A stretch of DNA of 64,000 bases from Antedon mediterranea (taxonomy: Eukaryota; Echinodermata; Crinoidea; Comatulida; Antedonidae), in assembly GCF_964355755.1 (NCBI RefSeq), contig NC_092676.1, positions 20,876,288 to 20,940,287 on the forward strand, read 5' to 3'. The translations under genes and the position numbers were made by a program. The notes under the pieces are model-generated. The model made no database searches. It saw only the letters and a program-made list of their open reading frames with translations, and had not been told where the DNA came from. Positions 14,785-59,400 of this stretch are shown here, piece after piece. How positions within the stretch are numbered: position 1 is the first letter of the stretch; each line of letters begins with the position of its first letter.

Positions 14785-17700
14785 TTATGCATTACACTTA
14801 TCTGAAACTAGACGGAGTGCTCGACTTTTATTTAATGATTTAAACAGTTTGTATTCTGCTGGCATGTGGTGGTTAGTGGTGTAATTCAGTTTTCGGTTGT
14901 CATAGTAATGATGCTTCAATGGTTGACCATTCGGTAGTTCATAAAATGGATAAAAACCATATAAGGAAACACGCCTGCACATTGTAGCTGCTGCAGTGTA
15001 CATGATTAACCCCAGCGAAGGATTGTTATTTTTCCAGAATCTATGAACAAACAAAATAACATATGGTTAATAATTGAATTAGGTATGTTTAAATAATAAC
15101 AATATGTGTTAGCACTATCATATACAGTTATGTGCATCATCATGTATTAATGTCTACAGTCTACAAACTTTTCTTGAGGTAACTAACGTTCATTCAGGAG
15201 ATATTTGCTTCATATATTATAGAAAGAAAACAAGTTCCAGGCCGCGGTTAAACACCTTGAGATAACATGCGTGTGAACCGTGTATTGCAATAAAAAGTGT
15301 TGGCATTTTTACATTATGTGTCAATTAAGGTATAATCAGAGTAGGCCTAGAACCAATATAAGACAACTTTACCGTTTTACTAGTCCAAGTATCCCTCGGT
15401 AAGGGTATACAATTTTAACTCTCAATTTATTCTGATTGATGCCAATAACAAGCTTATGTGCAAACGTTGCATTTCTGGTAGCATCGAATTTGGAAATCCA
15501 TACATATGCATAATTAAGCTGGTTAAATGTATCGTAAGAGTTATTATGACATGCATTTGTAGAGTTTGTGAGGCATATACCGCTTCTCGCAGTAGAAGCA
15601 TCGTTGAGCACCATCATATCTATTTTACTACCAACGTCTTGTTCAAAACCAATAGTTTGTGCAAGATTTCCTCTAAAAACAAAGTCGTGTGCATCTATTT
15701 CACGTCCACAACTGCTGTTTAGTAGAATACCAGCACTGCCTACAACTGCACAGGATCCTTGCAGAGGAATACTGTCGATATTATTAGGTAATTTTGTCAT
15801 TCGTTTATTCTGTATGAAACCATCCTTGTAAATCAGCGTTAATATCGACGGATTAAATCCAGCTTTGATAAGCCTTTTTCTGTAATTTAATAATAACAAT
15901 GTAAGTATGAACATTTTATATTGTAAAAATAAAGAGGAATGAATACGAGAGGTAATGGTAAGCGGAAAAGTGCTTGCTTACATAATTAATATGTATCTTC
16001 AACCACCCTTCCGCTCCGCTTTTGTGTAAATTTTCATAAAAAAATAACATATTCTATATTTTTGTTTTCCGCTTACATCTACCGCTCGTCTGTGTAAATT
16101 TGCCTTAAAGTATTTAATTTCATTGTTTGACAATAAATGTCTGGGGCTTTTATAGCACGCAAGCCAGAAGTCTCAGCTTAAGATTTGGCACGTTAGGCCT
16201 GCAATACAGTACAAAAAGTTAAAATTCATAAATACGAATAAAAATGTATGTATTGAAAATAAAAAAACTGACTAAAATCTAAATAAAGAGGAAACTACAA
16301 AAAATAAAGAGAATATCATTCTTTTCATATCATATCATTTTTTAATCGATTCATGTTGATCAAATGGCTGTAGGCCTAATGGTATTATAATTTTAAAATA
16401 GTAAAATGTTAACAATGAAATTACCTCATATCAGAAACAGCTTTATCGTCAATGTATTCAACCAATCGACATTTTATAGTTGAAGAATTCTTTGTCGGAT
16501 GTGTCTTGTTTCTAAACAAACTTTAATGATTTACGATAGTTTATTTTTATCATTTCTTACGCATGCAATCGTGATTCAATAGAAAATAAATTAAAAACAG
16601 TAAGTTTATTCCATAACCATTTGCGTAACAAAACTAAACTAATATAAATAGCTATACAGTATGCTACAAAGATTAGCTTTTTATCATGAAATTATAATGA
16701 AAATAAAATAATTTTAAAAATCTGTCGAGAATTGACTTTTCTGTGGAATTTTGAATTCATGTAATAATTTTTACTTAAAAGACATATTGCCCCCCTGAAA
16801 AATTAATTCCTATAATTATTTTTAATATGCTATTTTAATATCGCATAAGAGTTATTCATTTTGACCAAAAGATTGGATTGAAAAAAAAAACATTATTTAC
16901 CTGAAAAAATTGTATTTTAAAGCAAAAAAATAGTTTTTGGTTGGATTTAACCATTTTTTGAAAAAATTATAAATTTTTTTGTTTTCGTTTTTTCTACGAA
17001 AGTGATTAACTTCATTAACACTACAAAATAACATATTCAAAGTCTGATTTAATTAATCTTCATTTTTCATGTTTTTGGGGGACAATAAATATTTGAAGAT
17101 GTCATTAAATGGAAACAAAAGGCCTTACTGGAATCATTATTTTGCTGCTACCCTTATCATCATCATAATGTATAATTTATTTATTATTAATTAATTATTA
17201 TTTTGAAAATGGTCACCCTTCTCACAAGATGAATTTCAGTAAAGCCGCTACCTCTGAGTGGAACCTTTGGAACCCAACGAAGTGTCACCTATGGTGTTGG
17301 TCTAGTGGTGTTTAAACATTGCTTTTCGTTTATTCTAGTGGTATCCCATGAATGTGTATCCCAAATTAAAGGTTCTATTGTAGTTGTAACAAATATCATT
17401 TTGGATAATATAGGCTTAAATACTAATTGAGATAGCAGAATGTCAAAATGCCTGCAAATCAACCAAAACAGACTTGATATTGTTCTTTGATAATTGTTAT
17501 TAATATGCGTGAGTTCCATACCCGTATCTTAACTTAGGTGACGGCGCTTTGAAAGTTCCAAGAAGTCTTCTGAAAAATGGAAGTTACTAGAATAAATTAT
17601 TTCATTTAAAAGATTATTATTCCTTTGTAATATAATACATAAAACTGAAAAATATGCGATTTAGAACCAATAGCAAGCATTTAGCAACAATTTATTAATG

Positions 17701-18316
17701 TAGATCTGATGAAAAACTATCACTTTCAGGACAACAATTAAATGTAGCTATATTTCATTATCTTTAATATAAGAATGAATTAATTATTTTTCATTTACGA
17801 CATGGCGTATAAAATAAACACAATTATCCTGGTTGATCTGACCGTACAGGTTCTACTGTACAAGTTGTAAACGTTTATAGTTTATTAATACAGTTAGGAA
17901 ATGCGCTTGCATGGATGAATAATGTTTAGTACGGTAACAACTTATTCTCATTTTAAAATATTACGGGTGTAACAATTATAGAATTTATTCTCTAGACTTA
18001 AGAAAACGCTTAAATTGTGTACTAAATTTACCTAAATCTTTATAAGTTTAAAATCTTGAAGTTAACATTGTAAATTATAGTTTTGTTATGTAGAAGATGC
18101 ATGGCCTCTGGCTTAATACAGTATATAAATGCGAGGCATATTCGCTTTGTTGGTTTGAGTTATGGATATTCAATCTTACAGGATACAACGTAAAAACAAA
18201 CTTACTTACAGATTCTCCGTTGTTAGATTTTCTATAATAGTTAATACCACCGTGATTGCTCCAAAAATGAACAAAGTATTTCTTCGAGTTAGTAACGGTT
18301 GTGCCCATATCTCCAT
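14785..18316 (-). CDS. ST8Sia-like alpha-2,8-sialyltransferase, unit B (five exons)
   Basis: Paralogue of unit A with the same five-exon structure. Coding exons are 18316-18210, 17569-17522, 16511-16425, 15879-15373 and 15040-14785, all joined in phase 2, giving 334 aa. The anchor exon starts [20 protein letters not shown]. The catalytic exon carries a canonical motif L with both cysteines ([20 protein letters not shown]) and DVGSKID. The final exon carries motif S ([16 protein letters not shown]), motif III as HHYYDN, the VS box HHMPAE and a C-terminal cysteine. In characterised ST8Sia enzymes, the first motif L cysteine pairs with the motif S cysteine, and the second with the C-terminal one. 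All four are present, so this copy looks catalytically competent. All splice sites fit consensus. Substrate preference is unknown. Confidence 0.88.
16832..17087 (+). mobile_element. 256-bp dispersed AT-rich element, copy 1
   Basis: This copy differs from the one at 30358-30613 at only a handful of positions over 256 bp and is in the same orientation. It begins attttaatatcgcataagag and ends tgtttttgggggacaata. It lies between exons 2 and 3 of sialyltransferase unit B. It is non-coding, and its high identity to the second copy suggests recent mobility. No clear inverted termini are seen. Confidence 0.75.
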
Positions 18317-18591
18317 TATGTTAACAAATCAAATAATATTGTGTAACACGTACAAATAAGAAGCCGATCGTCTGTGTAAATTGGCTTTAAGTAGACCTGG
18401 TAGAACATCGATGTTCTTAAAGTCATTTTCATTGTTTATTAAAGTTGTTTATCATACGGGTCACGACATGCCGTTATGCAATCCCCAGACACGCACGTGA
18501 TCGTAAGAGTTGAAACAATAAACTGATTAGTATTAAGCATCACTTGGTCTACTCGTCTTATTTCTACAATAGTTTACAGACCTCATATCAA

Positions 18592-18660
18592 ACGCAGCTT
18601 TATCGTTAATGTAGTCAGCCAATCGATTTATACTTATAGTTGAATAATTCATATGTTCTC
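18592..18660 (-). pseudogene. Decayed copy of sialyltransferase exon 3, upstream of unit B
   Basis: On the minus strand it reads STISINRLADYINDKAAFDMR, clearly homologous to exon 3 of unit B. The 5' part is shortened, the acceptor-side phase no longer fits (two leading bases rather than one), and the donor is GTCTGT instead of GTAAT. It lies 5' of the anchor exon of unit B, so it cannot be part of that gene in normal order. Confidence 0.75.
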
Positions 18661-19148
18661 AAGAAAATATTATAATAATTTACGATTGCTCATTTGATTA
18701 TAATTTTCTTACACATGCCATCATTCGTGAATTAAAAGAAAATAAATCACAAACATAAGTTTTATTCCGTAACCATTTGCGTAAAACAACTAAACTAATA
18801 TAATATTAAACATATATTACAAAGAATGGCTTTTTCATCATCAACATAATTTATGTATTAGGCGCGTACAGTCCAAAACCTAATGAGGGAAACCAAACCT
18901 TTATTTTGAAAATTGTCACCTTTCTCGTATCATGAATGTGAACTTCTATAAGTTCTTTTTATATGGGTGTTGGTCATTTGTTTTGATAGTGTTTCCCTGA
19001 ATACTAAATTAGAGGTTCTGTAGCAGATAATATAGGCCTAGGCATAAACTTAATTGAGATAGCAGAATGTCGGAATGCATGTAAATCAATCAAAACAGAC
19101 TTCACATTGTTCCTTGATAGTTATCAATAATATCCGCGAGTTCCACAC

Positions 19149-19175
19149 CCGTATCTTAACTTAGTTGACGTCGCA
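19149..19175 (-). pseudogene. Remnant of sialyltransferase exon 2
   Basis: The 3' part of exon 2 (TSTKLRYG, donor GG|GTGTGG) matches unit B exon 2 (SPKLRYG). The 5' half and acceptor are replaced by unrelated sequence. The intron downstream of it (about 18980-19148 in window coordinates) is also homologous to the corresponding part of unit B. Confidence 0.65.
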
Positions 19176-19359
19176 CAGTGGGCCAGAATCAATTCAAAGT
19201 GTGCTAAAAGTGGCAATCCGAACTTTTTAATATTATTAGGAAGAAGACATCTTAAATTATATAAATCCACTAATTATTTTACATTTATATATTATATAAT
19301 AATAATAAGAATAGATAGATATAAAAAGATAATAAAAATAATTGTTGGTTTGAGTTATG

Positions 19360-19470
19360 GATATTTAAACTTACAGGATGCAACATAAAAACAAACTTAC
19401 AGATTCATTGGATTCTTCGTATTTTTAACAAATCAAATAATATTGTGTAACACGTACTGTGTAAATTGGC
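19360..19470 (-). pseudogene. Exon 1 copy with internal deletion
   Basis: Both flanks match the unit B anchor exon region (gttggtttgagttatggata on one side; aacaaatcaaataatattgt on the other), and the donor side (cttacagatt) is kept. About 85 bp holding the start codon and the transmembrane segment are missing. This copy cannot supply an N-terminus. Confidence 0.7.
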
Positions 19471-19540
19471 TTTAAATGGATGTTAATTATATTAAAATAT
19501 ATAAGTAAAAGGTTAACAATAACATTCAAAAGTACATTAT

Positions 19541-19615
19541 CTCATATCAAGCACAGCTTTATCGTCAATGTAGCCAGCCAATCGGCATTTTATAGTTGAA
19601 GAATTCATTGCCCGA
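19541..19615 (-). pseudogene. Exon 3 copy with mutated donor
   Basis: It reads [22 protein letters not shown] in frame, close to exon 3 of unit B, but the donor GT is AT (ATGAG|ATAATG), so normal splicing is lost. It lies 5' of the gutted exon 1 copy at 19360-19470, showing that it belongs to a separate duplicated unit. Confidence 0.75.
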
Positions 19616-19724
19616 TGTCGTTTCAATGATTTGCGATTGCAATCATTCGTGAATCAAACAAAAACATATCACAGTAAAATAATTTTCTCGGGTAAACGGT
19701 AAGCGGGAAAAATTGGTCTTATAG

Positions 19725-19810
19725 TGTAGACTTGCCCCAAGTCTGTATTTATTGTCTTTTTAAAAAAAATTATTTGTTTTCATTTCGATCGCGATTTTTG
19801 TCTGAAAATA
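19725..19810 (+). mobile_element. Left half of the 170-bp dispersed element, split by an insertion
   Basis: It matches the reverse complement of 5403-5572 up to gtctgaaaata, where similarity stops. The other half resumes at 22171. Confidence 0.7.
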
Positions 19811-22170
19811 CAGACTTGTGAAACACGTATAGAAATCGATTTGCAGACCGCAAACATCCGATAAGAATGACGTAGGTTATCATACCGTATTTGGCTATGT
19901 GGGGCGGGGCGGTATCTAAATATGGATTTCGTATCAACCAATGATCATTTTGTTTCAAAATGAAAAAGATCGAGTACGTACGTACGTACAGTGCTGAATG
20001 TACGATCGAGACTGAACAACTGTTGAAATTAAAATCGTGTTGCCAAGTTGTTTTGTTTATTAATTGTTTAGTCCTGGCCTAGGCCTGCTTCGTAGGGCTA
20101 CTCAACTCGTACGTATGACCTGCCAAATAAAACGCCAATAAAGTACATACCACCACCGACCGGCACACAGCAGGGGCTACACCACCACACAGAACAGGAC
20201 AGGGTCTGGGGTGGGATTAAAACAAATTTTCTCCACATAATAAATGATCCATTCAATGTTTGATTTGGCGGAGAAGCTAGCCTATCATCACGAGTTTTCA
20301 TGTTCTTGGGAAAAATCTCATCAAATGTTTACCAGACTACTACTTACTATGCATATAAAATCATTTCTAGCCTTCAAAAACTTTCATCAATGTACCCATG
20401 GATTAAAGGATAGAAGGATATGCATCGACGGTGACATCAAACGATTTGACAACACGCTTGCCTATACTAAAGCACTGCTGCCAATCAAACATTGAACTCC
20501 GTGTCTCTAACGGCGGCCCTCTGTAGAACGCTGCAAATCAACTGCTACATTTTTTTTTTAGACCAAAACGTAACCATGTAGAAATCGTATGCGCAGTCTG
20601 AATGTTCTATTGACATGTCTGCGTCGATGATTAATTGACAACAAAAATGTATTGCTGAACAATTCTGTTTTAGTTTCATAACAATCGGACTACGAAAAGT
20701 TCACTTTCTTACGACTGGTAATTTTAAGTAGTTGGTAATATTAATAAAATATGCAATTTTTATATTTGAATTATCATTATTTGCCTGCCATCTTCTGTCA
20801 TTAAAAATTGCGTTAATCTATAGAATATTAAATTATGCATTTGACCATGTATGTTGTTAGCGTGTCCGGTGTCCACACATATATGGCTAAGCAGTGGTTT
20901 CTTCATAAATCTCCTTAATTATCGATGTAATTATATTTAAATTTTAGTGCCTGGTGATTGGCTAGTGGTTATGTCATCATCATCACATCCAATCACCGGG
21001 ACTAATTGAATGAAAACAGCGATCCCTGATCCGGGATTGGCTGGCTATGTATAGTTGCGAAACGTTACCTAGCGGTCGTTTTGAAAAGTTCACGCAGGGC
21101 AAATAAAACTTAATCACGAACAAACGAAGTACCTATTATTATTCACACGTACACAACAACGGTGAGGAGATCATGATTACACGTTGTATCTACTACAAAG
21201 ATTAAGATTAGCCTAGGCCTACCTAGGCAGTATCAATGTCGGCAAATCATATGGTTTACTAGTAAGCCTAAGGCCTAGTATCCTTGCTGATTTTGTAATT
21301 TTACATGTAGGCTGAGACAACAAATAAATAGTTATTGTCTCAGATGTAGGGCTACTACAGGTCATTAATGCTAAAAACATTAGCGTAGATCAATCGCGGC
21401 AGAAACCTATACTACAATGCATCTACAATTCTAAGCCAATAACAATATAGTATTGTTTTTATCTGGTATATTGATGAAGTAGGCCTACACAGGGTCTTCA
21501 CAATAACATACAATGTAATTTAATAACTGTTTTCAATAAACATTATACTCAGTGGCGTGAGGCAGAGGCCTGAAGCCACTTGTTTAGGAAATCTAAGTGG
21601 CCCTCCAAGTTTCAAAGATCGAGGCCTCGGACGTACGTTTTTAGCATTTTCGACATATTTTATGCCTGTTCCTCTGGGCACTGCTCATGGGGGCCCCAAG
21701 CTTCGGTTTAGCCAGTGAGCGCACATAGCCGTTACGCCACTGATTATACTGTTCAAATATTAATGAATACATACAGTGCAACAAAGAACGCGCCAAAGAA
21801 GCGTAGCCAACAAGGTTAAATGTCGTTGCACATGTGCAGTAAACAATATATTAGGCACGCGACCGTTTCGTTGTTATCATGCGGTTAATTAAACTGTAAC
21901 ATTGTGGGCGGTCCGCGATCTGTCGGCGAGAGTCAAGGAACCCTTGATCTCACGTCGATGCATATCCTTCTATTCTTTAATCCATGATGTACCCAAGTAC
22001 ACATTGTCTAAACGTAACATAGCGCATGCGCATCGTCTTAGATGTTGAGTCTTTGAAATTCTGAAATATGAATATTAAAACGACGTACGACTGAGTAGCC
22101 AATGGCATGCGGCTGAAACTAGTCAACTGGATAATTTATGCACCACTTATGCGTGTTTCCCCAGACGGAG
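19811..22170. mobile_element. DNA transposon of about 2.36 kb inserted at TA within an older element
   Basis: The uninterrupted copy at 5403-5572 gives the empty site. Here TA (19809-19810 and 22171-22172) flanks the insert. The ends share a weak inverted repeat (gtgaaacacgtat against gggaaacacgcat). Inside, a 34-bp block at 20398-20430 recurs inverted at 21953-21986 with one mismatch. I find no transposase; the 83-aa frame at 20244-20495 is unrecognised. A TA duplication would fit the Tc1/mariner group, but the termini are too weak to assign a superfamily. Confidence 0.6.
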
Positions 22171-22260
22171 TATCCAAACTCAAGTAATACACGTATGAAA
22201 CGCCATATGTGCAAAATATTTATATTTTTACAAAACTCCGTCTGGAGCCCAGACTAGTCT
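22171..22260 (+). mobile_element. Right half of the split 170-bp dispersed element
   Basis: It resumes the match to the reverse complement of 5403-5572 with tatccaaa and ends ggagcccagactagtctt. Confidence 0.7.
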
Positions 22261-22269
22261 TAGTGTTAA

Positions 22270-22430
22270 AACATATTGCTTTTCGTTCCTTTTAATAGTG
22301 TTCCCCTGAATACTATAAATCTCCCCAGGGTTCTGTAGCAAATACAAAACATCATTTTGGATAATATAGGCCTATATATTTAATTGAGATAGCAGAATGT
22401 CGAATGCCTGTAAATCAACCAAAACAGACT
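22270..22430 (-). repeat. Third copy of a sialyltransferase intron segment
   Basis: The sequence from ttgcttttcgttcc through gagatagcagaatgtcgaat to aaaacagacttcacat matches about 17310-17480 and about 18980-19110. It marks the former intron between exons 1 and 2 (or flank) of the unit that owns the anchor exon at 22853-22962. Confidence 0.6.
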
Positions 22431-22852
22431 TCACATATAATAATTATGGGTGTGAAGATGATTTGTTTTGTATACCCAAGAATCGATTGTATTTGTACTA
22501 TTTTTACACAAATCTTTATAAGTTTGAAATGTTGATGTTTAACAGCGTGAATGTATTATATTTATTTTTGTTATGGAGAAGAACACAGTAAGACTACCTC
22601 GCAAATAATGTATATACAGTATACACACAATGAATATTCGCATATGCCTTATTTTATTCGCATCACAACAATCTCTTTTCAGAACTATTATTATGCAGTA
22701 AGCTACCGTACGTGGTGTATTGCACATTTTTATATCAACACATTGTTTTCGCCATGCAAACGTTCTAACAATATATTCGCACTGTTTGTTGAGTTTAATG
22801 GATATTCAAATTTTATGAAAACTTACAGGATACAACTTAAAAACCCACTTAC

Positions 22853-22962
22853 AGATTTGTTGAATTCTCCGTTGATATATTTTCTATAGTTATTATAGCA
22901 ATTGCTCCAAAAATAAACCAAGTAATTCTTCGAGCTAGTAACGGTTGCGACCATATCTCCAT
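22853..22962 (-). CDS. Intact sialyltransferase anchor exon (unit C) without its own catalytic exons
   Basis: It encodes 36 codons, MEIWSQPLLARRITWFIFGA then a hydrophobic run and ENSTNL, ending in a good donor (CT|GTAAGT) in phase 2. It is therefore splice-compatible with exon 2 of unit B. Between it and unit B there are only decayed copies of exons 1-3 and a transposon. Either it is a relic of a unit that lost its catalytic exons, or it works as an alternative distal first exon for unit B. The sequence alone does not decide. Its intactness (no stop, conserved donor) slightly favours use. Confidence 0.7.
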
Positions 22963-28100: not shown

Positions 28101-31100
28101 TAGCTTTCTGGTGGATCCATCTAAAATCGCACGACTATTTGCCGATATACCTACTTTTTTGTTGAAATTTTCTCACAAAAAAAATTATTCCAATGTTTGT
28201 TTAAAAGCACTAATAATATGTTTACACATTTACCTTGATTTTAATTGTTTTAAGCTCTGTCTGCACTAACAAACTATATGTGACAAAAAATGTGGTGTGC
28301 CTTTATATGGGCATAATGAAATAATATCACTACAATATTTGTGCATATCACTACCATATTTGGGCATATCACTACCATATTTGGGCATATCACTACCATA
28401 TTTGGGCATATCACTACCATATTTGGGCATATCACTACCATATTTGGGCATATCACTACCATATTTGGGCATATCACTACCATATTTGGGCATATCACTA
28501 CCATATTTGGGCATATCACTACCATATTTGGGCATATCACTACCATATTTGGGCATATCACTACCATATTTGGGCATATCACTACCATGTTTGGGCATAT
28601 CACTACCATATTTGGGCATATCACTACCATATTTGGGCATATCACTACCATATTTGGGCATATCACTACCATATTTGGGCATATCACTACCATATTTGGG
28701 CATATCACTACCATATTTGGGCACTTCACACTTTGTCAAACAGTTTGATAGTGTAGACAGAGCTTTACATCTTGAAAACTAAGTTCATACTCATCTTATC
28801 AAATATTCATTTTTTTAATTTAAGTAATGAAGTTCAAAATATGATTCAGAATTTTGGAGGTGAGTTTTTAAGATTTAAGAATATATTAACCTAAAAAGTT
28901 TTTTGTTGACATTTAATGCATAAATCAATAGAAAATTCAATAAAAGAATGGAACTAACAATCAATTTCAAATTGATTTGAATTTCTGTAAAGGTTGTATG
29001 TATGCACAACTTGCCAACAAGATACTATGTGTTGCAATTCATGATTCACAAGTGTATTACATTGTCCTGCTAGGAACAAATTATTCTTTTTATCATATTG
29101 AAAATGATATATTTAGTAAAGCAGAGGCCCATTGCCACCTCTACACCAGGTTTTTTTCTTTCCTACACCCTTGGGAAAATTAAATTGTACCGTAGCTGTT
29201 GCAAATTTACTGTGGTCATCCTCAAATTCAAGATGGTGTCCAAAGTGGCTGCCAACTCTGATCACAAGCCTATTAGGGTTCATAACTCAATAAAAACTAG
29301 ATATATTTATTAAATATTATATTGATGAATAGCCATTTAGCTTATCTTTCCTATCGAATACCATAAATCTTCTAATTGTAACCATGGGTTATTATTCTTT
29401 GATTGTTTTTAGGGTATGTTACTATTAGAAGGGGGGTTACTATTAGAGTAGGGGGTTGCAATTACTAATCTGAAATTAGGCACCTGAAAAACTTTTCCGG
29501 TCAGCAACTCATAGCAAAATAATAAAACAGTACGAATAAACAAATTTGGTTGAATTTTTTAAAACTCAAAAACACTCAATCCTCCCCCACTCCCGAGATC
29601 AACATGCTTTATCTCCTCTTTTTAAAAATTTGTGTGACTCTAATAGTAACCCCGATGGGTTGCTAGTGGGTTATTAATATAGATTGACTTAAGGTAGGTT
29701 ATTATTAGAAGGGGGGTTACTATTAGAAGATTTATGGTATGATTTTCTGAAATAATTTTCACTAAATAGCTTTTATAACAAAGGCTATTTTTGTCACTTG
29801 AACCTCTGCTTATATCTTCCACACTGCATCATTTGATCTTTATGTTTTTAGCTGATCTACGCAAGTCAATTTCTGGGAAGAGAAAACGATTGGAAACATT
29901 CACACAACAGTCAATGAAAGCGGCCAATAGCAAAGTAGAAAAAATGTGGAAAACCCAGCAGACACAAAGGTATACTGTTTACATTTTTGGCTTGGTTTGT
30001 AGTTAAAATGTGTGTTAATTACATTTATAACAATTATGAAGTCTTGCTAAAACATTAACAAACTACTATGTAGACTAAAATTAAAGTAAAACAAGGAATA
30101 GAGGGCACTATAAAAATATTTGTCCATTTATTGATGTGCATTTGTTATTTAATATTAGGCAAAAACTGAACGATGAATATGGAAAACAAGTGAATACAGT
30201 CCTTGACCAATGGGAGGCAGATGTGACAAGAGTAAAGGAACAAGAGGAAAAACTCCAGGTATTGACAAGTAAATTCTTAAGCTCTGTCTACACTATCAAA
30301 CTGTATGCGATGTGCCCATATATTTTGTCGTTTTATAATTTTATAATTAACTGATTAATTTTAATATCGCATAAGAGTTATTCATTTTGACCAAAAGATT
30401 GGATTGAAAAAAAAAACATTATTTACCTGAAAAAATTGTATTTTAAAGCAAAAAAATAGTTTTTGGTTGAATTTAACCATTTTTAGAAAAAATTATAAAT
30501 TTTTTTGTTTTCATTTTTTCTACGAAAGTGATTAACTTCATTAAAACTACAAAATAACCTATTCAAAGTCTTGATTTAATTAATCTTCATTTTTCATGTT
30601 TTTGGGGGACAATACATCTTTAGATAGAATGTTTTACTGTGTGCAACAGAACTAATACTGAACTACTGAATACTGAATTTTATCAAATGTATGGATGTAA
30701 TTTAGATGTTGTTTTTTATAGTATTTAAATTTTCTGTCGAGGAAACTGTTTTATATACATTTTTATGTGAGACAACTAAAGATCAAAATTACTTTTGTCC
30801 TTAATAACTAGGAAATTGGTATGCAATGCACAAGGTCTGTAAATAATAGTTGCAATTATCCTTATTACTTCCATAGACTCTATTCAAACAACATCAGAAG
30901 TTGTTCCAACAGTCAAGAGTGGTCATGAGTCAACGGCTTAAAACTTTAAGGCAACTATTTGAACAGTACTCAAAGGTTTGTATTAAAGCCCCCTTCCCTA
31001 TGTCTTTTAGATATAATTTAAGATCACAAACTATATTTAATGTAAAATTAATACTATATGGTCCTATTGCGATAACTTTTTTCGTCTTTAAACGGTTAAA

Positions 31101-37214: not shown

Positions 37215-37254
37215 GAGGATTGCTCCAAAGAAAGAAAGGAAAGATTGTAAGTAG

Positions 37255-38215
37255 ACCAGTCATCCTCGTTCATTCATCTGGTCATCAACCATCTTTCGTT
37301 CATCTGGTCATCAACCATCGTCTTTTATTCATCTGGTCATCAGCCATCTTCTTTCATTAATCTGGTCATCAGCCATCTTTTATTCATCTGGTCATCACCC
37401 ATCCTCTTTCATCTGGTCATCAGTCATCCTCTTTCATTCATCTGGTCATCAGTTATCCTTTTTCATTCATCTGGTCATCAGCCATCTTTGATTCATCTGG
37501 TCATCAGCCATCTTTCATTCATCTGGTCATCAGCCATCCTCTTTCATTCAACTGGTCATCAGCCATCTTTCATTCATCTGGTCATCAGTCATCCTCTTTC
37601 ATTCAGCTGGTCATCAGTCATCCTCTTTCATTCAGCTGGTCATCAGTCATCTTTCATTCATCTGGTCATCAGTCATCCTTGTTCATTCATCTGGTCATCA
37701 ACCATCTTTCGTTCATCTGGTCATCAACTATCGTCTTTTATTCATTTGGTCATCAGCCATCCTCTTTCATTAATCTGGTCATCAGCCATCTGTTATTCAT
37801 CTGGTCATCACCCATCCTCTTTCATCTGGTCATCAGTCATCCTCTTTCATTCATCTGGTCATCAGTTATCCTTTTTCATTCATCTGGTCATCAGCCATCT
37901 TTCATTCATCTGGTCATCAGCCATCTTTCATTCATCTGGTCATCAGCCATCTTTCATTCATCTGGTCATCAGCCATCTTTCATTCATCTGGTCATCAGCC
38001 ATCCTCTTTCATTCAACTGGTCATCAGCCATCCTCTTTCATTCAGCTGGTCATCAGTCATCCTCTTTCATTCATATGGTCATCAATCATCCTCTTTCATT
38101 CATCTGGTCATCGGCCATCAACTTTCATTCATCTGGTTATCAGCCATCTTTCTTTCAGCTTGTCATCAGCCATCATCTTTTCATCTGGTCATCAGTCATT
38201 ATCGTGTTTTCACAT
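37255..38215 (+). repeat. Minisatellite in the SYCP3 3' UTR, about 38 units of 23-27 bp
   Basis: Unit: ttcattcatctggtcatcag followed by ccatcctct or ccatct. It begins about 45 bp after the SYCP3 stop. A block of several units starting at 37269 recurs at 37681, so there is a higher-order period of about 412 bp. Long plus-strand frames (up to 265 aa) are artefacts of the repeat. Confidence 0.92.
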
Positions 38216-38288
38216 TTGCAATTGTGCATTTTTTAATCCTAGTTGTGTTAGTACATTAGTTATGAAGGATTTATGTGTTGTATAGTTA

Positions 38289-56430: not shown

Positions 56431-59400
56431 TTAGCATGGCTGAACAAACTGGTAGACAAGTCGTTGCGATACTTCAGTTTTTTTCATGATTGATTTCTTG
56501 TAGTATTGTCGAATTGATCGGCTAAGTTTGTCGTAGTTCATTGCTGGTCTGTTTTTACGCATTCCCCAGAGACGAGCGACCTCAACTGAATCTTCAATTT
56601 TGAAAATTCCTGAATAAAATATAAGAAAAGCAAGCATTTAGTATATATATTCTCAATTTTTCCGTATAAGTGGTTAGTGATAGGTATTTCTGTAGACATG
56701 AATGGATTTGGTCTCAAGGTAAATTTGAAATTGAATTTTAATAGGAGAAGTATCTGAGATACTTATAATTTTATCATTAAATTATTACAAGGAGATCTAA
56801 GTTCTGCTAGGACTGTATTGTATATGAATTTAAAAAATGTTATATCAAAAACAAATTACCTTCAGCTCTGTTTAGCCATCTGATGCAATAACTGTACGAA
56901 TCTGGTTGAAGCAAGAGTTCCTTGAGAAACTGCCATAGGTGAATTCCTCCTTTGTGGTTTGGAGTCATGGAAGTGTTTGGACCAGAAGCAGTTGGTGATG
57001 GAAGAGATATTTCATCTGTAAGAAGTAACATAATATATTAAGCAACGATGAATTATTATTCCAAAATCTAATCTAAATGATGCATCTTTTTAAATCATAA
57101 AACTGATCGGATTTGTTTTTCTAAGAGATACTGCCGGTTCCATTTTTTAGAGATAGGTAGTAATATATTTATTGAAAAAGTTCGAATTTACTAATTTACA
57201 TGGTACCAAAACTTGGAAACTTAAAAAAAAATGAAACTTACCATCACTGTTTGATCCGATACTTGTGTTGTCACTTGGGTGTGGAAACATATGGTCCATA
57301 TATGTGTCTTCTTGTTTGATTTCTGGCTGAATAAATTGCATTTGTTGCATTTGTGGACTTGGATACATTTTGGCAGCTAGAAATGGAATAAAGTACAGTG
57401 TAATTAATATTTGTAAGTTAATAATATAATTTAAAATTCGTCGTGATTTTAAATTCTTAAAATTGATCTCTATTGTTTTGGCATCTGAAAAGTTTAAGAG
57501 GAGATATTTACCTGTTTTCCAAATGTCGAGATGAGCAAACAGAATATCACCACATCTTGGGTCAATTTGTCGGAAGTTTAAGTCTGTTAACATACACAGT
57601 TGGAACCCATTCATTGCAAAGCACTCCATGCTCGTTGGCTGCATACCATAATGATGGAATGTCCATAGGATCCACTTCTCAACTTGTTCATGTGTCCAGA
57701 ACTGTGGATCTATACAAGGAAAAACAATTTTATGAATATTTAATTATTGTTGTATTATTCTGTAGTGAATTAAATATTTAGTCCCATTAAAAACAAACTT
57801 GTTTTAGTCGTGAAATTTGGAGAATTAAAAATCAAAACTTACCTTGTGGAATATTAAGATACTGACAGGCGACTGTGATATCTTTCATAACTTCTTTCAC
57901 AATAAGTTGCTGCACTTGATCCATACTTTCGTTTTCGTACGAGTTTGGGCTATCAAACATCGACTGTTCAACACTAACTGGTGATTCTGACGATCTATCT
58001 AATTCTTGTTGTTGTGGAGTACCATAAGCAAACGGATTCTGAGCAAACATATGCGGCGAGTCCACGAATCCTTGGCTACGGTTGTAGTTGTTACTGATGT
58101 CTAAAAACGACTTATCCTGAGTAGAAAAAAAGATTTCAATCGTGAAAACACAGATATTTTTTTGTGAATAAATCTAAGTACGTTCTTTGTTCTGTAATCG
58201 CTGCTTAAAAATGGAAGCTACAAGAGAGGAAACGCTGTATACAGGAAGTAAGCTATACGTGTACAAGGTTACTGTTCTTAAGCACTTCCTCATACGACTA
58301 ATGGATACAGCTCACTAACCATGTTTTCAATGCGAAGATTTATGGAAAATCAACACAAGAGTACCACTCGTTATCAAAATATAAACTAAAACATATTTCA
58401 AATTGCATTTATTAACAACCGAACTACAAATTATTGCGCGAAAATCGCGCTAACTGTAAAGTTAATCATCACCATAATCCAGCCTTATCATTATCACGCT
58501 AAATATTTTTCTTTATAATGATAGATTTAACAAGAAAGTTAAGTAATGGTCTTTAATCGTATGTTGAAAATTAATAATATATCGTGACCTCACATATAAG
58601 CAGTGAGTCATCAGTCGTGCCTGTGATTGGTCAGATGTGTTCAGGTATTGACAGAAAGGGGAAGTCCCGGTTTCTCCCTGAGCTACTCGAATACATGCCG
58701 TGTTGTTATTCTCAACGATAAGTACCATCAACGAATAGTGGTACCATATTTATGTTCAAGTGTTTACACTCTGTACTTTTAATTAAGATGATATGTAGTC
58801 TGAGTGAGTTGGACAAAACTCAATATAAATTATCAAATTAATTTTGTAAACATGAGTGTTTTAGATGTTTGAACTCTAATTAAAAGAATGTTTAAGAGTC
58901 TTACCTGTTCTTGTTGAAAGCTTGAAATTGGGTTTAATAGGCAAACTTCTCCCATCTTTTCTTGGTTTGGTTTGTTGAAAACTGAAAAAAAAAAACCAAT
59001 TGTTAAACAATACGTAAATAAAGTAATGAAATGAAGTATAGTTAAAATGAATATTTCATTAAATAAAATAAGTAGTCAATTATTTTTATAAGATTATAAA
59101 AATAATTGATCTGATTCTCCAGGACCCACAACGTGGGTTTCGTTGATGACCCCTCGATGGGTTATATTTCCCTGGTACGTCGTCAGTGAATACTAAACAT
59201 CAGTTTCAAAATAGCTTACTTTGTGATTGTTGTTGAGATTCCAGCGTTGGCGTAAAGAAGCCTAGTAAATATAAAATAAATGTTAAGTTCAGTAAGTCCT
59301 AGTCTGTTGTTAACCCGCTACAAGTTTTGGTTGTGAATGGTATAATTAAAAGATGCATTCCACTTTATGACTTACAGCGAGCTGACGTCATTGACCCGCC

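Follow-up and report, generated by a model that had tools for sequence, protein, structure and literature searches.

Sea urchin and amphioxus have tandem-duplicated alpha-2,8-sialyltransferase genes, named ST8Sia EX (PMC2564942), and here we analyze a locus of the crinoid Antedon mediterranea in which a complete ST8Sia-like gene, which we call unit B, is preceded by extra copies of its first three exons. The window, by which we mean the whole analyzed stretch of 64,000 nucleotides (nt), is C7:20876288-20940287 (contig NC_092676.1), and its sialyltransferase exons are part of a tandem array on the minus strand of C7. Like ST8Sia EX, the locus combines a tandem array with a GT29 domain that is nearest to an alpha-2,8-sialyltransferase (5bo6, E 2.5e-34), a likeness that we draw from family and layout. 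Unlike ST8Sia EX as presented in the main text of its description, where the word 'exon' does not occur, the crinoid array contains partial cassettes of exons 1-3 (PMC2564942).

The UGT1 cluster has a tandem series of variable first exons, every one with a promoter to itself, ahead of common downstream exons (PMC3325998). Repeated first exons likewise stand ahead of one shared downstream exon set at our locus, with the differences that just two of these first exons are intact, that exons 2-3 were copied as well, and that the arrangement is known from sequence alone. Human B4GALNT2 has alternative first exons, 1S and 1L, that give tails of different lengths with a common transmembrane domain (PMC9959560). 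It offers the parallel of a Golgi glycosyltransferase with two first exons, but it is the tail that is changed in B4GALNT2, whereas here the tails are almost equal and the difference lies in the anchor. Tandem exon duplication, in which exons are copied within a gene (PMC9013439), resembles our locus in the copying itself and differs in that we find a three-exon block with dead inner copies and not a pair of mutually exclusive exons. We read the locus as an ordinary case of partial tandem duplication followed by decay within a sialyltransferase array, one first exon having survived; its use as an alternative first exon is possible and unproven.

Three copies of an exon 1-3 segment

Unit B is a complete five-exon gene that extends from 18316 to 14785 on the minus strand (Table 1). 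The protein predicted from the distal exon 1 described below and unit B exons 2-5 scored 155 bits against PF00777 (Glyco_transf_29), for which the curated cut-off is 23, and by this domain match unit B is a GT29 sialyltransferase. The best PDB matches were 5bo6 and 5bo8 (E 3e-34 for the latter), both alpha-2,8-sialyltransferases, and the next match stood at E 1.7e-13, which places unit B in the ST8Sia subfamily by its nearest relatives among PDB sequences. We take exon 4 to carry sialylmotif L and exon 5 to cover sialylmotif S to the C-terminus, following the usual motif names.

Upstream of unit B lie two more copies of exon 1, of which one is intact and the other gutted, together with two copies of exon 3 and half of an exon 2, and this layout is that of an exon 1-3 segment present in three copies, namely a distal cassette (D), a middle cassette (c2), and unit B itself. 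The initial annotation of this DNA had held that no copies of exons 4-5 accompany the extra cassettes, and exon searches indeed gave no match to either exon between 16 kb and 24 kb. When unit B exon 1 and its flanks were used as a DNA query against the whole genome, the only copies returned were those within the window (4 matches). The distal exon 1 is intact, as had been proposed: its 110 nt hold 36 open codons, and its identity is 82.9% with exon 1 of unit B (105 columns, E 2e-25) and 79.1% with exon 1 of unit A, another unit of the array.

Each extra exon 2 and exon 3 is dead. Exon 2 is gone from the distal cassette although its intron-2 sequence remains, and the distal exon 3, already annotated with a dead donor, has lost its acceptor too. 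For the middle cassette, the annotated exon 1 and exon 3 copies are present, but they end at 19401 and 18582 and not at 19360 and 18592 (41 and 10 bases off, respectively), and exon 2 does end at 19149, as its 3′ half only. The extra exon-3 copies match at E 9e-23 and 5e-13, far beyond chance. Inactivating changes are thus found in exons 2-3 of both extra cassettes and in the middle exon 1, as in a relic of partial duplication. Simple decay after partial duplication, which had been offered as the alternative to a functional distal exon, gains support from these dead exons, from the gutted exon 1, and from a distal exon 1 that diverges like non-coding sequence. The distal cassette also holds a stretch that has inverted arms of 34 nt at its ends (20397-20430 and 21953-21986, 97% complementary), which is probably a mobile-element insertion.

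Uncollapsed haplotypes or misjoined reads could in principle create such copies in an assembly. We found no point in support of this, and the copies differ at ~7-24% of aligned sites and carry distinct indels and an insertion, which we judge to be too much for haplotypes or read errors, so an artefact of this kind is highly improbable.

Table 1. Positions in the window of unit B, the extra exons, and the sequences at their junctions
Feature	Position	Strand	Basis or detail
Distal (D) exon 1	22853-22962	-	Sequence and exon search; ATG, 12-residue tail, hydrophobic anchor, phase-2 end, donor GTAAGTGG
Surviving intron-2 sequence of distal cassette	22360-22436	-	89% to 19107-19026, 90.7% to 17475-17391
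Stretch bounded by inverted arms inside distal cassette	20397-21986		Arms 97% complementary
Distal exon 3 copy, dead	19541-19618	-	16-nt gap relative to unit B removes acceptor; donor GT to AT
Element terminal repeat, distal exon 3/middle exon 1 junction	19457-19480	-	17-base core 19473-19457, 0 mismatches
Middle (c2) exon 1, gutted	19401-19424	-	Alignment; coding part mostly gone, donor kept
Middle exon 2, 3′ half only	19149-19174	-	Alignment; other sequence in place of 5′ half and acceptor
Middle exon 3 copy, dead	18582-18650	-	Nearest upstream AG leads into stops; donor GTCTGT
Element terminal repeat, middle exon 3/unit B exon 1 junction	18364-18390	-	17-base core 18388-18372, 0 mismatches
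Unit B exon 1	18210-18316	-	Exon searches and alignments
Unit B exon 2	17522-17569	-	Exon searches
Unit B exon 3	16425-16511	-	Exon searches
Dispersed inverted-repeat element copy, unit B intron 3	~15940-16108	-	17-base core at 16106, 2 mismatches
Unit B exon 4, catalytic	15373-15879	-	Exon searches and domain match
Unit B exon 5, to C-terminus and stop	14785-15040	-	Exon searches and domain match

Junctions at an inverted-repeat element

The 17-base core AAAGCCAATTTACACAG follows each extra exon 3 and stands ahead of the next exon 1. We looked for it on both strands of 178,287 bases, made up of 12 fetched stretches and the window (negative coordinates below lie outside the window and follow its numbering), and, allowing at most 2 mismatches, we found it in three places only, at 19473, 18388, and 16106. 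Both junction copies have no mismatch, and the copy at 16106, within unit B intron 3, has 2. The element to whose terminal repeat the core belongs is dispersed, with 592 first-look candidates and at least 48 matches, the latter listed from 40 scored, and inverted ends were present in all five of the copies that we fetched, which had been selected from the match list for long or two-strand matches. Short, dispersed, and bounded by inverted ends, the element resembles a miniature inverted-repeat transposable element (MITE) and is referred to here as MITE-like. Another copy, at 12431-12217 (67%), lies ~215 nt upstream of unit A exon 1.

The sequence just after the distal exon 3 aligns modestly with the start of unit B intron 3 (score reached by 16/500 shuffles). 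Past the middle exon 3, by contrast, the sequence gave no significant alignment with that intron (129/500 shuffles), a result that tells against an intron-3 join. Because these flank alignments are weak or modest, it is chiefly their position and the terminal repeat that support an origin of the junctions in intron 3. We propose that two tandem duplications copied exons 1-3 of a single ST8Sia-like gene, with the joins at the terminal repeat of the MITE-like element and the breakpoint in the copy that lies in unit B intron 3. With a breakpoint there, exons 4-5 would never have been included, and therefore only exons 1-3 would have been copied. The extra exons would since have been decaying by drift, and unit B would make one enzyme. 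We consider it probable that the cassettes arose in this way and that the extra exons 2-3 are dead, a judgment that does not extend to the use or disuse of the distal exon 1.

The array is made of complete units, so a complete unit is what would usually be copied, and the cassettes might on that account be remnants of upstream units that were once complete and later lost exons 4-5 by deletion. However, the same terminal repeat is joined to the same exon-1 flank at both extra junctions, and the middle and unit B flanks are identical at 33/33 bases. Two independent deletions with identical ends are unlikely, although a single deletion followed by duplication is conceivable, and we regard later loss of exons 4-5 as an unlikely origin for the cassettes compared with partial tandem duplication.

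The two intact first exons

In a tandem duplication the outer flanks stay as they were: the original upstream sequence remains with the first exon that lies furthest out, and exons 4-5 remain with the innermost copy. The distal exon 1 should therefore be the copy with the original upstream region, which reverses its earlier treatment as the extra copy; by the geometry of the layout, it is unit B exon 1 that adjoins a junction. Transcription may still start at the original upstream region of the distal exon 1. Unit B exon 1 lies ~50 bases from the duplication junction, with the element fragment at 18364-18390 sitting 47 nt before its ATG, and no such fragment (core AAAGCCAATTTACACAG) was found in the flank of the distal exon 1. 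The 5′ flanks of D and B share an 11-base match only (44/500 shuffles reach the score), and their homology is for that reason thinly supported. A 42-base block located 101-149 nt before the ATG is conserved in the 4 other units tested; since it is not significant in D (41/500), B (327/500), or A (422/500 shuffles), no promoter can be recognized by it in these three. Comparisons of the D flank with unit A, with the unit whose exon 1 is at 1879, and with unit B beyond the junction showed nothing. Several units have a pyrimidine-rich stretch with an AG shortly before the ATG, and in D this is located further upstream. A spliced non-coding leader that would have orphaned unit B exon 1 was also considered and was rejected, as the unit with exon 1 at 1879 lacks the AG and no leader exon was identified.

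The D and B copies of exon 1 are both intact, have GTAAGT donors, and end in the same phase, as the initial annotation had stated, which is phase 2; the reading frame runs on across a junction of the distal exon 1 with unit B exon 2. Because the extra exons 2-3 are dead, the only productive splice that we found for the distal exon 1 leads to exon 2 of unit B or, if that is skipped, to its exon 3, and a transcript from the distal exon would splice past unit B exon 1, which shows no evident acceptor. Such a transcript, it had been suggested, could give a different cytoplasmic tail and anchor. The suggestion holds for the anchor, whose length differs and accounts for the larger D-B difference, and is weak for the tail, since the predicted 12-residue tail of D, MEIWSQPLLARR, and its counterpart in B differ at 2/12 residues. 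The exon-1 peptides of D and B are 65.7% identical over 35 columns, and the D anchor reaches a 15-residue hydropathy maximum of 2.00, within the range of 1.91-2.59 for the 6 anchors computed.

No selection is detectable on the distal exon 1, because it has not diverged measurably less than neighboring non-coding sequence. D and B differ at 15/101 sites in exon 1 versus 46/270 in three intron segments (Fisher p 0.75), and changes found only in D amount to 3/98 in exon 1 versus 13/217 in the introns and dead exon 3 (p 0.41), where unit A was used to polarize exon 1 and the middle copy to polarize the introns and dead exon 3. The intron total excludes the D-B 5′ flank (34/65 differing), whose homology is doubtful, and a deeper intron-1 segment (27/113 D-B differences) has no third copy for polarizing. 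By segment, the D-only changes are 8/59 in intron 1, 1/82 in intron 2, and 4/76 in dead exon 3, and the unique changes at the 59 intron-1 sites are 8 in D, 1 in B, 2 in the middle copy, and 1 ambiguous. Such uneven counts may mean that the locus is a mosaic, on which dating would be unsafe. With an exon so short and a comparison so shallow, these tests give no firm answer on selection.

Several observations pull the other way, toward a distal exon 1 that has been more than a decaying relic. The exon is intact, its donor fits the consensus, and it retains the R-R-x-T-W-F-x-x-G-A pattern shared by the 7 more distant units, a pattern that is partly lost in unit B exon 1. Over 98 sites, the unique exon-1 changes are 3 in D versus 9 in B (binomial p 0.15), with 15 in A and 2 ambiguous; a poorer gap placement gave 3 in D, 13 in B, 13 in A, and 2 ambiguous over 101. 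The exon-1 tree, which groups D with B (support 86), has a branch of 0.022 for D versus 0.162 for B. Finally, in a codon alignment with hand-placed gaps, the exon-1 gaps among D, B, and A are 6, 9, and 3 nt long, all multiples of three, versus 1/10 of the D-B gaps in the flank and introns. These gap lengths suggest that coding constraint acted somewhere; they fit constraint on units A and B and imply nothing certain for D, which has no gap of its own.

One way to accommodate these points is that D and B exon 1 are twin alternative first exons, each with its own promoter and both spliced to unit B exon 2, that give slightly different tails and anchors of different lengths. That both exons are open and in phase 2 with consensus donors speaks for this, as do the gap lengths, the hydropathy of the D anchor, and the existence of a glycosyltransferase with two first exons in human B4GALNT2 (PMC9959560). 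Against it, the distal exon is conserved no more than its introns, the predicted tails are nearly the same, and intactness is weak evidence, as 3 random substitutions would spare the ATG and frame 77% of the time by chance, a figure that leaves out indels. We therefore see twin first exons as a tentative possibility, and use of the distal exon beside unit B exon 1 as correspondingly doubtful. A fuller version would be a gene with two working first exons that arose from a transposon-end duplication, in which the distal exon would keep the ancestral promoter and the proximal one would supply a new, faster-evolving anchor, giving one catalytic module with two anchors; this seems somewhat less probable still.

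The distal exon 1 might otherwise be the sole working first exon, with unit B exon 1 a relic within a 5.3-kb first intron. The outermost copy retains the original upstream flank, an element fragment stands close before the ATG of unit B, and unit B exon 1 has lost the conserved W and has the larger number of unique changes. Yet the frame of unit B exon 1 has survived 2 indels and 9 substitutions, which is unlikely for a relic, and the thin homology of the D and B flanks and the lack of a recognizable promoter in D, B, or A also count against it. We regard a sole distal first exon as quite unlikely, and we would expect the distal exon to be used instead of unit B exon 1 with only a small chance.

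Considering use of any kind, we put the chances of the distal exon 1 being in use just short of even. If it is used, the locus would be a clear case of a partial duplication that swaps the anchor of a Golgi enzyme and leaves catalysis untouched, with the join of the duplication still legible. If it is unused, which we judge to be slightly more likely, the locus shows, in a well-preserved state, how partial copies are shed by tandem enzyme arrays, and annotators should be cautious, as either exon 1 could be called the gene start without evidence.

The surrounding array

Across the 354-Mb genome, at least 150 exon-level matches to PF00777 indicate many GT29 exons. Within the 178,287 bases examined, exon 4 is matched over at least 454 columns in 10 places and exon 5 in 10 places, and the two are present together in 9 units. 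Between an exon 4 at -101253 (to -101707) and the exon 4 that comes next there is no match to exon 5, and -26223 to -26800 holds an exon 4 end and exon 5 only. The further partial copies of the array consist of an exon 4 without exon 5, an exon 4-5 fragment, and a doubled exon 3. Intact copies of exon 1 occur in 10 places (distal D, unit B, unit A, and 7 others), all of which end in phase 2; leaving D aside, there are 9 for the 9 units with exons 4 and 5.

The doubled exon 3 belongs to the third unit, whose exon 1 is at 1879. Its two copies are 48 nt long, lie at C7 ~20870392 and ~20870883 (window ~-5893 and ~-5402; locus L011), and both have an AG acceptor and a GTAAGTT donor. This doubled stem exon seems intact and is perhaps a better candidate for exon choice, or for a longer stem, than the distal exon 1.

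Exon 5 of unit B (15041-14785) shares 95.5% identity with its counterpart in the third unit (-7630 to -7871), 91.3% with that in unit A, and 78-81% with the 7 other matched exon 5s. Exon 4 of unit B is ~79-82% identical to the 9 other long exon 4 matches, and the two sets of identities taken together suggest that exon 5 was exchanged between units.

Upstream of the array, a coding stretch at 57147-57743 on the minus strand contains a SAM/Pointed domain (PF02198, E 3.1e-19), and we take it to be, probably, an ETS-family gene. A tandem repeat with a 21-base unit occupies 28324-28729, with copies that are mostly 92-98% alike by self-comparison and with several frames open. The long open frame at 37251-38285 on the plus strand is built of repeats and is probably a repetitive non-coding stretch.

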